From: Pseudidiomarina aestuarii
GTDB taxonomy: Bacteria; Pseudomonadota; Gammaproteobacteria; Enterobacterales; Alteromonadaceae
Length of the DNA stretch: 64,000 bases
Assembly (NCBI RefSeq): GCF_003987355.1
Contig: NZ_PIPR01000002.1
Location: forward strand, 124,001 to 188,000
Direction: 5' to 3'
In this document: one piece after another, positions 18,537-24,308 of the stretch
Numbering within the stretch: position 1 is the first letter of the stretch
Layout of the letters: each line of letters begins with the position of its first letter
The notes under the pieces: generated by a model
Told to the model about the DNA's origin: nothing
Database searches by the model: none
Seen by the model: only the letters and a program-made list of their open reading frames with translations
Translations under genes and position numbers: made by a program

Positions 18537-19234
18537 TGCAAACACTGACTTGCCGTATCGTCAGTATCGATGCGCTCACACCCATGGTCTATCGGGTGCA
18601 TTTAGAGCCGCCAGAAGCGGTCAAATTTGAAGCCGGTCAGTATCTGCAGGTGGTGATGGGGGAACGCGACAAACGCCCGTTTTCCATTGCGTCTTGTCCA
18701 AGCAATCCCGAATTGTTCGAGTTACATATTGGCGCGCATCCGGATAACCGTTATGCAACCGAAGTGATGGAACGATTACAAAACCAAACAACGATTACGG
18801 TAGAGGCTCCATTAGGCAACGCATTCTATCAAGGCAATAGTGAGCGACCCTTGATCCTGGTGGCTGGCGGTACCGGTTTCTCCTACACCTGGTCCATATT
18901 GCAGTCTCATTTGCAGTCTGGGTCTAACCGCCCGATTACTTTGTATTGGGGGGGCCGCGAACGCGCTGATTTGTATTTCCATCAGCAGCTCCTTGAACTG
19001 GCCGAGCGGCATGAACATTTTTCTTATCGACCAGTCGTCGAAAACGTCAATGGCGAGTGGAAAGGCGCTGTTGGACTCGTTCACCATGCGGTGCTTGCCG
19101 AACAAAGTGATTTGAGTGAAGCCGATGTATACGTTGCCGGTCGGTTCGAAATGGTTCGTGTGATTCGCGATGACTTCCACGCCAATGGGCTGCCATTGAG
19201 TCAACTGTATGGCGATGCGCTAGCCTTTATTTAA
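18533..19234 (+). CDS. fre: NAD(P)H-flavin reductase Fre
   Basis: Fre reduces free flavins with NAD(P)H and can supply reduced FMN, for example for prenyl-FMN cofactor synthesis. The 233-residue product equals E. coli Fre in length. It has the flavin-binding motif KRPFSIAS, the nucleotide-binding [16 protein letters not shown], the TLYWGGRE segment, and the C-terminal FGDALAFI-like YGDALAFI. ATGs at 18533 and 18536 both overlap the ubiD TGA; either is plausible. ubiD-fre pairing is common in gammaproteobacteria. Confidence 0.95.
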
Positions 19235-19243
19235 TTCGTCTAT

Positions 19244-19271
19244 TTTATCAGCAGCGGGGCTTTGTTATACT
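19244..19271 (+). promoter_or_regulatory. Putative promoter of the thiamine operon
   Basis: TATACT at 19266-19271 is a good -10, 16 bases after a weak -35 TTTATC (19244-19249). CAGCAG (19249-19254) and CTGCTG (19270-19275) form an inverted repeat across the spacer. Transcription from here would begin just ahead of the TPP aptamer at 19281. Confidence 0.45.
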
Positions 19272-19280
19272 GCTGCGGCA

Positions 19281-19376
19281 TTACCAAGGGGTGCCCAAGC
19301 GCTACGCGCACGGGCTGAGATGCAAAATGCGAACCCTTTGCACCTGATCCGGTTAATACTGGCGTAGGGATGGTAG
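19281..19376 (+). promoter_or_regulatory. TPP (thiamine pyrophosphate) riboswitch, THI element
   Basis: The segment carries the conserved THI-box blocks in order: AAGGGGTGCCC, GGGCTGAGATGC, GAACCC, then CACCTGATCCGGTTAATACT and GGCGTAGGGA. TTACC (19281-19285) and GGTAG (19372-19376) can form helix P1. The aptamer lies 68 bases before the first gene of a thiamine-uptake operon. TPP binding should turn the operon off; the downstream switch is listed as a separate element. Confidence 0.97.
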
Positions 19377-19404
19377 CTATCAAACACCATTGCAATACCT
19401 GCCC

Positions 19405-19444
19405 AACCGGATTGTTTCTCTTTGCAGTAACAAGGAAATAATCC
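19405..19444 (+). promoter_or_regulatory. Riboswitch expression platform: Shine-Dalgarno sequester hairpin
   Basis: GGATTGTTTCT (19409-19419) can pair along its full 11 bases, with two G-U wobbles, with GGAAATAATCC (19434-19444), which contains the Shine-Dalgarno and ends directly at the ATG at 19445. AACCGGAT (19405-19412) is also the exact complement of ATCCGGTT (19347-19354) in the aptamer core. The two pairings share 19409-19412 and are mutually exclusive, giving a translational off/on switch. No T-run follows, so a terminator mechanism is not indicated. Confidence 0.72.
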
Positions 19445-21565
19445 ATGTCTCAATTGAAATTTTCGACCTTAGCGTTAGCGCTCACCAGTACCTTTTCGGC
19501 AACTGCGGTTCAAGCACAAACGGAACCAACTGACATTCTCGAACGCATCACGATTACCGGTGAGTATCGCGCCACCACTATCGATGAAACGCCGACAAGC
19601 GTCACTGCTTTAGTCAATGCCGAGTTTGCTGAACGCGGCGCGTCTCACCTCGAAGACGTGTTGAATAAACTACCAAATGTGAATTTTTCTGGCGGTAGCT
19701 CGCGCGCTCGCTTTATCCAAATTCGCGGTATTGGTGAGCGCAGTCAGTTTGTTGATCCGATCAATCCGTCTGTAGGCTTGCTCATTGACGGTATTAACTA
19801 TAGCGGACTGGGGCAAGCGGCACAGCTGTTTGATATCAGTCAGGTCGAAGTATACCGGGGTCCACAGAGCGGTCGTTTTGGTGCGGATGGCCTAGCCGGC
19901 ATGATTGTTCTCGAGAGTACTCGGGCACAAGCCGAGTTTAGTGGTCTTTGGCACTTAGGTGTTGGCAATTATGGCGAGCGCCAAGGCGGTTTGGCCCTTG
20001 GTGGTGAGTTGGGAGCGCTTGGCACTGCACGGTTGAGTGTCTATCAACAACGCTCGGATGGCTTTACCGAGAACCTCTACCTACAACGTGACGACACGCA
20101 GAGTCGCTCAGAGCGGATGGCACGCCTGAACGTGTTTAGTGACCTCGCACAAAACTGGTCGTTGCAAACGACTGTTCACGCGCTGTCTCAAGACAATGGT
20201 TATGACGCTTTTTCGCTCGACAATACGCGTCAAACTTTGTCGGATGAGCCCGGCGAAGATGACTTAAGCAGTTTTGCTGCGCGAATGGCGCTTACATTCA
20301 ATGGTTTTGAATCGAGTGAATGGTTAGTGTCTTATTCCTACTTGGATGCAGATAGCACCTACTCGTACGACGAAGATTGGAGTTTTGTCGGCATTGCGCC
20401 GGGCTGGGAATACTCATCTTTTGATAGTTATCAGCGTGATCGGCACGATCATACATTAGAGCTGCGAGGGCTCAGTACCCAACCTGTGCAATGGCTTGGC
20501 GCGGAACACGACTGGGTTGTCGGTCTGTATCGTTATCAACGTGACGAGCGCTTGCAGCGTGATTTTTTCAACTTTGATTTAGGGAGCCAAGATCGCTTTT
20601 TAAGTGACTACGATAATCGGCATTTAGCAGTATACGGTGAGCTTTCGAGTTATTTGAATAGTGACTGGACCTTGACCACAGGGTTACGCGGCGAACGCTA
20701 TGATAATCCTTACACAGACAACAATGGTGTGACCGAAGAACCCAATGACACCATGTGGGGCGGACGTCTGAGTCTTAGCTATCAAGGAGTTCCGGGGCAT
20801 CTCTACTACGCAACCCTAGCTCGTGGTTACAAGCCGGGCGGTGTCAATGGCGAAGCTTTAGGGAAAGCACAAGATCCCAGCCTCACCGAACTGCGGGAGT
20901 TTTTGCAGGCACGCTCAACCTTTGCGCCAGAGTTACTCACGAGTATCGAGCTAGGGCATAAATGGGCGTCAGCCGATGGTGCGATGGCACTGCGCTCTGC
21001 GCTGTTCGTTCAAGCACGAGATGACGTACAACTGAAAGGCTGGATCAATCGCGACCAATCGTTTGTAGGTTATCTACAAAATGCTGCCAGCGGTAGTGTG
21101 TCGGGTGTCGAAGTTGAGTGGGATTATCAATGGACCGAAGCTGCCAAGTGGTTTGCAACCTTGGCGTGGTTGGATACCGAAATCGAGGGCTTTGTCACTG
21201 AAGACGGCATTGACATGACTGGTCGGGATCAAGCTCATGCGCCGAACTACCAAGCCAATATCGGGCTTAGATACAACATTTCGGATGCAGTGACGGCAGT
21301 CGTTCAAGTCGATGCGAAAGACGGTTTCTACTACTCGGATTCACACTTTAGTCGCGCTGAGGCGGTTGAGCTGCTGCATGCTCGAATCGACTGGCGAGTG
21401 GGTGGTTGGAATTTGAGTGCGTGGGCGCGTAACCTGACTGATGAGACCTATGGCATACGAGGCTTTTTCTTTGGGAATGATCCGAGAATTGAGTACGCCG
21501 CCCGCACTTATGAGCAGTTTGGCGAGCCGCGGCGCTTTGGATTCACTGCAAGATACGCATTCTAA
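19445..21565 (+). CDS. TonB-dependent outer membrane receptor, probable thiamine transporter
   Basis: The 706-residue protein has a signal peptide ending AVQAQ (near residue 25), a TonB-box-like stretch LERITITG, a plug domain (about 40-160, with IQIRGIGERSQF and VEVYRGPQS) and a 22-strand-type barrel ending in Phe (FTARYAF). Such receptors import scarce ligands using energy from TonB-ExbBD, which are not in this window. Assignment to thiamine or a phosphorylated form rests on the TPP riboswitch directly upstream and the PnuT gene that follows. Its stop overlaps the pnuT ATG (TAATG). Confidence 0.9.
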   Translation: MSQLKFSTLALALTSTFSATAVQAQTEPTDILERITITGEYRATTIDETPTSVTALVNAEFAERGASHLEDVLNKLPNVNFSGGSSRARFIQIRGIGERSQFVDPINPSVGLLIDGINYSGLGQAAQLFDISQVEVYRGPQSGRFGADGLAGMIVLESTRAQAEFSGLWHLGVGNYGERQGGLALGGELGALGTARLSVYQQRSDGFTENLYLQRDDTQSRSERMARLNVFSDLAQNWSLQTTVHALSQDNGYDAFSLDNTRQTLSDEPGEDDLSSFAARMALTFNGFESSEWLVSYSYLDADSTYSYDEDWSFVGIAPGWEYSSFDSYQRDRHDHTLELRGLSTQPVQWLGAEHDWVVGLYRYQRDERLQRDFFNFDLGSQDRFLSDYDNRHLAVYGELSSYLNSDWTLTTGLRGERYDNPYTDNNGVTEEPNDTMWGGRLSLSYQGVPGHLYYATLARGYKPGGVNGEALGKAQDPSLTELREFLQARSTFAPELLTSIELGHKWASADGAMALRSALFVQARDDVQLKGWINRDQSFVGYLQNAASGSVSGVEVEWDYQWTEAAKWFATLAWLDTEIEGFVTEDGIDMTGRDQAHAPNYQANIGLRYNISDAVTAVVQVDAKDGFYYSDSHFSRAEAVELLHARIDWRVGGWNLSAWARNLTDETYGIRGFFFGNDPRIEYAARTYEQFGEPRRFGFTARYAF

Positions 21566-22149
21566 TGCAGTGGGTCCTTGAACAACTTGCGCTAAGTTCA
21601 CCGTGGGAGCTTCTTGCGGTGATCTTAGCGGTGACCTATTTGGTTTTAGCTGCGCATCAGTCGCTCTGGTGTTGGCCTGCCGCAGCTATCAGTTGCACCA
21701 TTTATATGGTTCTCATGTATCAGGCTCAACTCTATATGTATGCGGCACTCAACATTGTCTACCTGGGTATGGCCGGTTATGGGTATTGGCAGTGGCGACA
21801 GTTGCCCGCTAATGCCGTGGTAACAGCGATTGAACTGGGTTGGCGCGGACATATCAAGCTTATTCTACTATGGTCGGTAGTCGCCGCGCTGGTCGCGATG
21901 CTATTGCTTAGGTACACTGATGCAGAGGCAGTCTGGCTGGATACTTATCTCGCGGTTTTTAGCGTTGTTGCAACCTGGTTGCTGGCGCGTAAGAAATTCG
22001 CAACGTGGTATTACTGGCTGGTAATTGATTGTGCGTATGTTTATTTGTTCATTTTACAAGGATTTGTCGCAACGGCGCTTCTCCATGTCATTTATGTAGG
22101 ATTAGTTTTCTACGCCATGTGGCAATGGCAACGAGAAGCACATAAATAA
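21565..22149 (+). CDS. pnuT: PnuC/PnuT family nicotinamide riboside/thiamine-type permease, probable thiamine uptake
   Basis: The 194-residue protein has about seven membrane helices and the family pattern around WCWPAAAISCTIYMVLMYQ and YWQWRQ. PnuC relatives are facilitators whose substrate is trapped by phosphorylation; the PnuT branch carries thiamine and is characteristically controlled by TPP riboswitches. Position two in a THI-box operon supports thiamine. A kinase-like gene follows by 12 bases, which fits metabolic trapping. Confidence 0.88.
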   Translation: MQWVLEQLALSSPWELLAVILAVTYLVLAAHQSLWCWPAAAISCTIYMVLMYQAQLYMYAALNIVYLGMAGYGYWQWRQLPANAVVTAIELGWRGHIKLILLWSVVAALVAMLLLRYTDAEAVWLDTYLAVFSVVATWLLARKKFATWYYWLVIDCAYVYLFILQGFVATALLHVIYVGLVFYAMWQWQREAHK

Positions 22150-22161
22150 CAATGGCAGTTT

Positions 22162-22944
22162 ATGCAGCAGCAATGGCTTACTAGTTTACCGATACATGGT
22201 GTGATCAGCACTGCGCCCCTGTTGCGCGGTGTTGCCAATGATGTGTATCGCATCAATACCACCAGCGGTAGTTACGTCCTCAAACACTTTCGATACGATC
22301 ACCCGTATGGGCTTGATCGTGCCCAAGAGGTCGAAGTTCAGCGTCAGCTTGCCGCGCATGCTTTAGCCCCTGAAGTGATTTATTTTGACCTCGCTCAGGG
22401 GCTCATGCTGCAACCTTTTATTGAAGCACCTGACTTGGCTCATTCCGAATTAGGTGTCAGTGACCGAATTCAGTACTTGGCTGAAGTTAGCGCGCACATT
22501 CATCGCTTACAAATCGAAGTGCCGGTGTGGTCACTCCGTCTGCGGTTGAAGCATTATTGCGACGGCTTAGCGAAGTTTGATGCCGAACGCGCGCGGCAGT
22601 TTCAAAAGCGTTTGCAGCCCTTTAAAAAACTGATTGAAGGTTTTGGCGCACACCCAACGTTTTGTCACAACGATTTGGCTTATCACCATGTGTTTGTGTC
22701 CGAGCCACCACTGGTGATCGATTGGGAATATGCAGGCATGGGTGATCGTAACTTTGACCTTGCAAGCTCGATGCAAGTGAACCAGTTTGATGCGCGTCAA
22801 CAAATGGCATTTTTGAACGCTTATGAAGCTCAAGCAGGAGTACAAATCAATCGCGATATCGTGCTCGATTGGTTAGGATTAGTCGAGACGATTAGTCAAC
22901 TATGGTACGAGCTACATCATAATTTACAGCAACAAATGCGCTGA
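22162..22944 (+). CDS. Aminoglycoside phosphotransferase/ThiK-like kinase, putative thiamine kinase
   Basis: The 260-residue protein belongs to the APH/choline-kinase fold: an N-lobe with YVLKHFRY (ATP-contacting Lys near residue 38), a catalytic loop CHNDLAYHHVF and the metal motif VIDWEYAGMGD near 190-200. The WEYAGxGD stretch is like that of E. coli thiamine kinase ThiK. In the HxDxxxxN signature the final Asn is His176 (H169, D171, H176), which is unusual. Context (TPP riboswitch, pnuT) points to phosphorylation of imported thiamine; the substrate is inferred. Confidence 0.8.
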   Translation: MQQQWLTSLPIHGVISTAPLLRGVANDVYRINTTSGSYVLKHFRYDHPYGLDRAQEVEVQRQLAAHALAPEVIYFDLAQGLMLQPFIEAPDLAHSELGVSDRIQYLAEVSAHIHRLQIEVPVWSLRLRLKHYCDGLAKFDAERARQFQKRLQPFKKLIEGFGAHPTFCHNDLAYHHVFVSEPPLVIDWEYAGMGDRNFDLASSMQVNQFDARQQMAFLNAYEAQAGVQINRDIVLDWLGLVETISQLWYELHHNLQQQMR

Positions 22945-22955
22945 ACGGAGGCTCA

Positions 22956-24308
22956 ATGAGCAACACGGACGATCAGGACCTAGTCGAACGCATGTATGGC
23001 TATCTTGCTGATGATGAAGATGCTCGAGTCTGTAAAGACATTCCAGACAGCGCTTGTGCCGATCAGCCTCAAGCGTTTGTCGCTCACCTCATTGCGTTAA
23101 CTCTCACCAAGCTGGGTGATTCACTCGTCAGCGCTCGATTGGTGCTACCCTGGCTCTTGTCGAGCTTGGGTGCCCCTGCAGCGTTTATCGCTGCGCTAGT
23201 GCCCTTGCGTGAGTCTTTGGCCTTGCTGCCACAACTGATTGTCGCGCAACAATTGCGTGAAACACCCATCCGAAAATGGTTTTGGGTAGTGGGTAGTTTC
23301 GGTCAAGCCGCTGCCTTGGTCGGTATGCTGGTAGCTGTTTTGACGCTCTCTGGTGAGGCTCTTGGCTGGGCGATTGTTATTTTGCTGACGTGCTTTAGCA
23401 TCGCGCGGGGTGTCTGCTCTGTGGCGATTAAAGACGTCCAAGGTAAGACTATATCCAAAACCCGGCGTGGAAGAATGTCCGGTTTAGCGGCTTCGACAGC
23501 TGGTTTCTTGTCGGTTCTTACCGCCGGCGTGATTCTATTTTCACCACAGGTATTCGATGAACAGTGGCTTGCCACCGGTAGTCCATGGCTGTTTGCTGGG
23601 CTACTGGGTTTTGCCGCTATTCTTTGGGTCGTTGCGGCATTGGTGTATGCGCAAGTTCCAGAAGTACCGGGTGCAACGAGCGGCGGTGGTAATGCTCTGA
23701 CCGAGGCTGTCCGCTCACTTCAACTGTTGTGGACAGATCGTCAGTTTGGGCAGTTTGTTCTGACGCGAGCACTGTTGGTCTCGTCAGCATTTGCTATTCC
23801 TTATATCGTAGTAGTGATTCAGCGCAGTGGTGAGGGTTCTCTGACGTCTCTCGGAGGCATGATGCTAGCGAGTGGGCTGGCCGGTTTAGTTGCGGGCCGC
23901 TTCTGGGGACGTTGGTCCGACCGAGCGAGTCATCAGGTTATGGCGGCAGCGGCATTGATGTCCTGCCTAGTCATGTTAGCAACTTTGCTCATGTACCAGT
24001 TTGAGAGACAGTGGTTGGGGTTCCAGTGGGTTGGGGCACTACTGATTTTTAGTGCGGCGGTAGCGCATCACGGTGCGCGAGTGGGCCGGAAAACCTATTT
24101 AGTCGACATGGCAACCCAAGACAATCGGGCGCAATTCACTGCGGTCTCGAATACGGTTATCGGCTTTGTGTTATTGATGGGTATTTTGCTCGGGCCACTC
24201 GAATCAGCCGCGGGCATCAGTGTGGTGCTGGGTTTGTTGATTGCATTAGGGATCATTGCAGGGCTGCGAGCTCTTACACTCCCGAATCCCCAAAAAGACA
24301 GCGACTAG
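22956..24308 (+). CDS. MFS transporter in the thiamine operon, substrate unknown
   Basis: The 450-residue protein has about 11-12 hydrophobic helices and an unusual acidic cytoplasmic N-terminal extension of about 45 residues. The loop KTISKTRRGRMSG near residue 165 and RFWGRWSDRASHQ near 315 resemble MFS loop motifs. It follows the kinase gene by 11 bases, with GGAGG before the ATG, and is last in the operon ahead of a terminator. Being under the TPP riboswitch suggests a thiamine-related cargo, such as a precursor or degradation product, but nothing in the sequence fixes this. Confidence 0.8.
   Translation: MSNTDDQDLVERMYGYLADDEDARVCKDIPDSACADQPQAFVAHLIALTLTKLGDSLVSARLVLPWLLSSLGAPAAFIAALVPLRESLALLPQLIVAQQLRETPIRKWFWVVGSFGQAAALVGMLVAVLTLSGEALGWAIVILLTCFSIARGVCSVAIKDVQGKTISKTRRGRMSGLAASTAGFLSVLTAGVILFSPQVFDEQWLATGSPWLFAGLLGFAAILWVVAALVYAQVPEVPGATSGGGNALTEAVRSLQLLWTDRQFGQFVLTRALLVSSAFAIPYIVVVIQRSGEGSLTSLGGMMLASGLAGLVAGRFWGRWSDRASHQVMAAAALMSCLVMLATLLMYQFERQWLGFQWVGALLIFSAAVAHHGARVGRKTYLVDMATQDNRAQFTAVSNTVIGFVLLMGILLGPLESAAGISVVLGLLIALGIIAGLRALTLPNPQKDSD

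Follow-up and report, generated by a model that had tools for sequence, protein, structure and literature searches.

The leader of a probable thiamine receptor gene in Pseudidiomarina aestuarii is very probably a translational OFF riboswitch that responds to TPP and governs thiamine uptake, as judged from its sequence, its relatives and its modelled folding, and the choice between its two folds is most likely kinetic, because the folding model predicts greater stability for the blocked form at full length. The pairing made by the aptamer and the pairing made by the hairpin arm are mutually exclusive and conserved, and the hairpin covers the ribosome site, so that the two structures have the properties of an antisequestor and a sequestor. 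The window in which the leader lies is a stretch of 64,000 nucleotides, and every feature described below is on its forward (+) strand.

Results

The aptamer (19277-19387) matches the TPP riboswitch (THI element) family of Rfam, RF00059, along the full length of the model (1-105), with a score of 74.1 bits against a gathering score of 54.3 and an E value of 9.8e-13; it is the only match to this family in the whole 2.64 Mb genome. It begins 42 bases after a flavin reductase gene that ends at 19234. Within its conserved THI core (19343-19368) are two helices, placed from the structure line of the Rfam alignment, which we take to be P4 (19343-19346/19365-19368) and P5 (19349-19352/19359-19362). 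The aptamer is linked to genes of the thiamine-uptake type: a TonB-dependent receptor, probably for thiamine (19445-21565; PF00593, PF07715), a PnuC/PnuT-type inner-membrane vitamin transporter (21565-22149; PF04973, E 1.8e-41), and a thiamine-kinase-like phosphotransferase (22162-22944; PF01636), whose product scores 90.1 bits with TIGR02721 (ycfN_thiK), under the cut-off of 299.45. They are followed in the same direction by an MFS transporter gene (22956-24308; PF07690), a possible member of the operon. A search of 19100-19600 for a sigma-70-type promoter gave no match, and a scan of the same interval for terminators found no intrinsic terminator at the leader hairpin or platform; its only terminator-like site, at 19210-19222, lies upstream of the aptamer.

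The sequence-only reading had claimed that ATCCGGTT (19347-19354) is the exact complement of AACCGGAT (19405-19412), and that an 11-pair hairpin joins GGATTGTTTCT (19409-19419) to GGAAATAATCC (19434-19444) over the Shine-Dalgarno and up to the ATG at 19445. Letters and coordinates are correct in both cases. The 8-base complement spans the 5' strand of P5 and the bases adjoining it. The 11 pairs of the sequestor hairpin are all standard, nine of them Watson-Crick, one G-U and one U-G; the 3' arm ends at the start codon and the Shine-Dalgarno-like AAGGAA, read directly, occupies 19432-19437, while the 5' arm is identified by direct reading, by its conservation in the genus and by the layout found in relatives. 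That the two helices exclude each other, as had been proposed, also holds, bases 19409-19412 being common to both. Since the alternative helix uses the P5 bases 19349-19352 of the aptamer as well, neither fold is compatible with its rival.

Chance seldom produces this arrangement. Among 20,000 dinucleotide shuffles of the platform (19377-19444), AACCGGAT arose in 21 and an exact 8-mer complement of any part of 19342-19376 in 409; a helix of at least 11 pairs anchored at the end of the platform, by the start codon, was found in one shuffle, and an 8-mer complement together with such an end helix in none of the 20,000. The total folding energy of the leader is unexceptional, 10/200 and 26/200 shuffles having folded as well in two tests.

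The eight competing pairs stand, and the length that had been given to the competing helix does not: it involves about 16 contiguous downstream bases (19398-19413), about twice as many. When the eight pairs are enforced, the best fold adds GG(C)GUAGG (19361-19368) paired with CCUGCCC (19398-19404), and GAUGGU (19369-19374) paired with ACCAUU (19386-19391), the latter a short hairpin on the 3' strand of P1. This leaves no unpaired base in 19398-19413 and dismantles P4, P5 and the 3' strand of P1. One switching strand of the aptamer, which forms the 5' side of the antisequestor, is 19346-19354; it comprises the end of P4, the P5 5' strand and the edge of loop 5, and makes nine pairs with the antisequestor 3' strand AACCGGATT (19405-19413). 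That strand complements the THI core, according to its letters, the fold, the alignment and the shuffles, and it has 19409-19413 in common with the sequestor. A second switching segment, 19361-19374, takes in the end of the P5 3' strand, the P4 3' strand and the P1 3' strand. Both of its partners, the CCTGCCC that faces the P4/P5 3' strands and was absent from the first reading, and the ACCATT that faces the P1 3' strand in the alternative fold, are seen in the enforced fold and in the genus alignment.

Conservation of the two pairings in related genomes had been named in advance as a check on the switch, and the check did not refute it: both are kept in 26/26 leaders of the genus. The alignment of these leaders has 26 rows, 24 of them distinct, and across the distinct rows the sequestor is paired in 100% of cells, as compared with at most 73% when its registers are slid. 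The core part of the antisequestor (19346-19354/19405-19413) is likewise paired in 100% of cells in the 24 distinct rows, the CCUGCCC part (19398-19404) in 97% of genus cells and the third part (19369-19374/19386-19391) in 82%, where the loop-adjoining pair 19374/19386 is not kept in 23/24 distinct rows; with registers slid by 1-3, the whole antisequestor is paired in at most 55%. No two-sided compensatory change was found inside the genus, among the 24 distinct rows, in either helix, so that covariation within the genus is neutral on both helices beyond their conservation.

Two adjacent pairs of the sequestor, at sites 19414 (5' base) and 19440 (3' base), vary together across the genus, the combination being G,A in 14/26 leaders, A,G in 10/26, G,G in 2/26 and A,A in 0/26. 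Each site has changed at least seven times on the receptor tree, and the independent pairs stand at 4 to 0 at best (p 0.125-0.25). The idea that this toggle holds the strength of the hairpin constant was rejected, the unseen A,A form being computed at the same -9.7 kcal/mol as the form in the window.

To look beyond the genus we used 205 loci, comprising 78 of the 79 matches of a search for relatives and 127 loci (100 regions and 27 new loci) among the matches listed by a family search, a sample that leans to high scores. A THI core was recognised in 202/205. Ninety-four of these loci are receptor-linked (26 in the genus and 68 others), 89 are thiC-linked, and 19 are other or unclear, a group in which at least one core is spurious and one locus was given the core of its neighbour. 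Three of the 94 receptor loci were dropped for want of a usable start, which leaves 91 leaders (26 genus, 65 other). A covariance model built from just the platform reached E below 1e-6 in 6/68 other receptor loci, with a few weaker matches, and one weak match (E 0.73) in the 89 thiC-linked loci; since it matched few receptor loci, each leader was tested on its own. By that test, the P5 strand has a better complement in its own leader than in shuffles (p<=0.05) in 26/26 genus leaders, in 37/65 of the other receptor leaders and in 2/89 thiC-linked leaders.

The combined layout, defined as an antisequestor element plus a sequestor that has at least eight pairs, with one mismatch tolerated, and a 3' arm ending 0-12 bases upstream of the start, is present in 69/91 receptor leaders (26/26 genus, 43/65 other) and fails in 22. 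At sequestor positions 5-10 of 42 distinct arm pairs, 92.1% of cells are paired, versus 74.5% after arms are swapped (maximum 82.1%; 0/2000 swaps as high as the arms' own partners), figures in which the hairpin arm was picked by best pairing, which leans to structure, and in which the swaps ignore relatedness. Two-sided changes occur at several positions across the relatives, among them U-A to C-G at position 5 and G-U/A-U to U-A at position 6. Where a base has two partners to satisfy (positions 1, 2 and 4), one pair is retained in 39-40/42; the figure for position 3 is 32/42. A good complement of GUAGG lies just upstream of the antisequestor element in 25/26 genus leaders and in 26/43 of the other leaders that pass the layout test, the rate in base shuffles being 37%. 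By eye, a complement of the base past CCGG is common where the core has T or C, and none was seen where it has A; this was not counted as covariation. The layout appears, from these comparisons, to be specific to one lineage and to be absent from some leaders there, namely the 22 that fail.

Nine receptor-linked THI leaders (L148, L175, L206, L210, L212, L217, L229, L230 and L244) end the core in GCGGAGG, not GCGTAGG, and 8/9 fail the layout test. Some of them, inspected by eye, apparently carry a CTCC partner for GGAG, and perhaps use another platform. More distant relatives of the receptor, at 33-41% identity, are found in Sulfurovum, Luminiphilus, Haliea, Thiomicrorhabdus and others (15 loci between L084 and L118). 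These were the 15 scanned from 36 loci not labelled as Pseudidiomarina, and a TPP riboswitch lies near the gene in 14/15. The P5-strand complement reaches p<=0.05 in 0/14 of these distant leaders, two coming near (p 0.085 and 0.09), and the 3' strands of the core have a significant platform partner in 0/14; with zero scores for both core strands, the distant-leader test does not tell which type of platform is used.

We modelled growing transcripts that start at 19272 as a series of equilibrium folding snapshots. P5 is intact in transcripts up to end 19408, and the probability of the antisequestor is 0.87-0.91 at ends 19412-19440. From end 19444 onward the model gives mostly the sequestor with an intact P5; with one exception the sequestor leads at the longer ends that were tried, the two folds being near equal at end 19448 (0.49 and 0.43), and the antisequestor probability is 0.08-0.49 over ends 19448-19530. 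Holding P4/P5 costs 3.9-5.4 kcal/mol over the range of ends where the antisequestor leads, and at most 0.5 outside it. Enforcing the 8-pair antisequestor at end 19470 raises the energy by 2.8 kcal/mol relative to the free ensemble and by 2.1 relative to the ensemble with the sequestor enforced. The modelled probability that the Shine-Dalgarno is unpaired at full length is 0.04 if P4/P5 are held and 0.07-0.22 if they are not, and opening 19430-19449 costs 6.5 kcal/mol under the antisequestor constraint versus 8.4 without it. A weaker six-pair hairpin (19419-19424/19431-19436) touches the Shine-Dalgarno in the model even when the antisequestor has formed. With the proposal that the site is exposed without TPP, the equilibrium model agrees at ends before the 3' arm is complete and disagrees at full length, where the blocked fold is mostly favoured. 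Since that fold is mostly favoured even without ligand, any exposure would have to arise kinetically.

The cost of holding P4/P5 was also computed for 87/91 receptor leaders and for 40 thiC-linked leaders taken at random from 44, with the start 50-125 bases from the core. Between the truncated and the full-length transcript it drops by at least 2 kcal/mol in 26/26 genus leaders and 37/61 other receptor leaders, as compared with 7.7% and 4.9%, respectively, of their shuffled platforms and with 4/40 thiC-linked leaders.

As for the supply of thiamine, thiC was found in 0/26 Pseudidiomarina genomes, three of which are <90% complete. In the P. aestuarii genome thiG was not found and there was no thiE-family match above the cut-off, and thiL is present. 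The gene content suggests that thiamine is probably imported, not synthesised, and that the genus looks dependent on an external source; with thiC in none of the 26 genomes, the supply of vitamin B1 is probably set by uptake.

Discussion

The direction first proposed for the switch, in which TPP holds the core and so allows the blocking hairpin, agrees by analogy with what has been published on how E. coli thiC, tbpA and thiM work. We suggest that when TPP is scarce the nascent strand 19398-19413 would invade P5 and P4 once it emerges, and that this invasion would consume the strand required by the blocking hairpin, so that the receptor is translated. If TPP were already bound, P4/P5 should resist invasion and leave 19409-19419 free to capture 19434-19444, closing the ribosome site. 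TPP bound before the polymerase passes 19412 would have to supply a few kcal/mol in order to hold P4/P5 until the blocking arm had been made. The choice would fall as the polymerase traverses about 19412-19440. Folding models and the analogy with published E. coli thiC and tbpA both indicate that the decision is probably made during transcription.

It is necessary to ask whether the same two structures could work as an equilibrium switch, the full-length mRNA flipping reversibly with TPP after transcription. Both folds could be populated, given that holding P4/P5 at full length (ends 19444-19530) costs just 0.1-0.5 kcal/mol and that the folds have similar probabilities at end 19448 (0.49 and 0.43). 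Even so, at the other full-length ends the blocked fold leads without ligand, which leaves little to repress; the modelled pattern of opening followed by relocking recurs in 26/26 genus leaders; and published accounts of the E. coli counterparts thiC and tbpA place the decision during transcription (PMC5234074, PMC8609307). We regard such a switch as unlikely. An effect of TPP mainly on the transcript, through early (Rho) termination or decay, with the hairpin secondary, seems to us slightly less likely still. In E. coli thiC, Rho terminates transcription where the polymerase pauses within the translation initiation region (PMC5234074), and levels of tbpA mRNA are reported to change too (PMC11487190), but strictly kept pairing over the start site points to translation, and the lone terminator-like site of 19100-19600, at 19210-19222, is not at the leader hairpin.

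The palindromic CCGG and the GC-rich P5 raise the question of whether the complementarity is a by-product of composition and the antisequestor goes unused, and the pair next to CCGG is indeed not maintained in leaders whose core reads GGATA. Against this are the rarity of the complement and hairpin in shuffles (together 0/20,000), the near absence of the P5-strand complement from thiC-linked leaders (2/89) and the existence of the additional CCTGCC partner, and we consider a by-product very improbable. A translational switch decided during transcription is the reading that we prefer.

A broader generalisation can be offered tentatively, and we hold it at somewhat less than even: that the receptor-linked TPP switches of one gammaproteobacterial lineage have a distinct expression platform in common, in which a 16-base strand that complements the THI core dismantles P4/P5, and a blocking arm with GAUCC or AAUCC ahead of the start codon imitates the AUCC of the core. 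If it is true, the core and the ribosome-site strand compete for one common sequence. The leader offers a clear example of a TPP switch, backed by comparison, in a genus with no thiC detected (0/26). The many natural variants, in which strand strengths differ, form a test bed for relating strand exchange during transcription to the response of a riboswitch; strand exchange is, according to a 2024 review, much less understood than the other two mechanisms (PMC10907184). No earlier description of a P5-strand platform appears among the titles and abstract openings retrieved from the open-access literature, though one may already be in print.

The P. aestuarii leader resembles E. coli thiM and thiB (tbpA) in having a TPP aptamer, a structure that sequesters the ribosome site and an alternative fold that dismantles the aptamer. 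Such attenuators were reportedly proposed by Rodionov and colleagues in their THI-element paper of 2002. For thiM a series of sensing, downhill and functional windows has been computed (PMC3280964), and for tbpA a sensing window has been measured (PMC8609307); in E. coli thiC and tbpA the ON state is marked by an anti-P1 stem, whose formation brings a narrow sensing window to an end (PMC11487190, PMC8609307, PMC5234074). The model that we applied to P. aestuarii pairs the platforms of thiM and thiB with the 3' strands of P1, P4 and P5, and that of thiC mainly with the P1 3' strand. In these E. coli switches the P5 5' strand pairs with the platform at 0-0.07 up to the start codon +3 (0.22 for thiB at +20), whereas in P. 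aestuarii it is paired at 0.95-1.0 at ends 19412-19440, unlike thiM, thiB or thiC. By this modelling the leader is not of the thiM/thiB type, in which the P5 5' strand is free, though the 3' strands also take part here.

With E. coli thiC the leader shares a predicted ON-state lock that excludes the ribosome-site stem and, probably, a co-transcriptional decision. The thiC lock (anti-P1), derived from 77 sequences, excludes P1 as well as that stem, and the decision is placed near the start codon (PMC5234074). The thiC lock, however, involves P1 (the C7-G16 region; PMC5234074), and thiC-linked leaders are mostly without a P5-strand complement (2/89). Barrick and Breaker describe ligand binding that disrupts an antisequestor so that the sequestor forms, and switching through P1 in most riboswitches (PMC2258182); in the P. 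aestuarii leader, by contrast, the P4/P5 strands bear most of the competition. In eukaryotic TPP riboswitches, too, a P4-P5 portion pairs near the regulated site and is displaced by TPP (PMC2258182). What is regulated in eukaryotes is a 5' splice site, whereas in P. aestuarii the site is a strand that controls a bacterial ribosome site. On the strength of its sequence and its modelled folding, then, the leader is very probably of a kind already known, a conserved and ordinary translational TPP OFF switch, to which the lineage-specific platform and the use of the P5 5' strand add a local twist.
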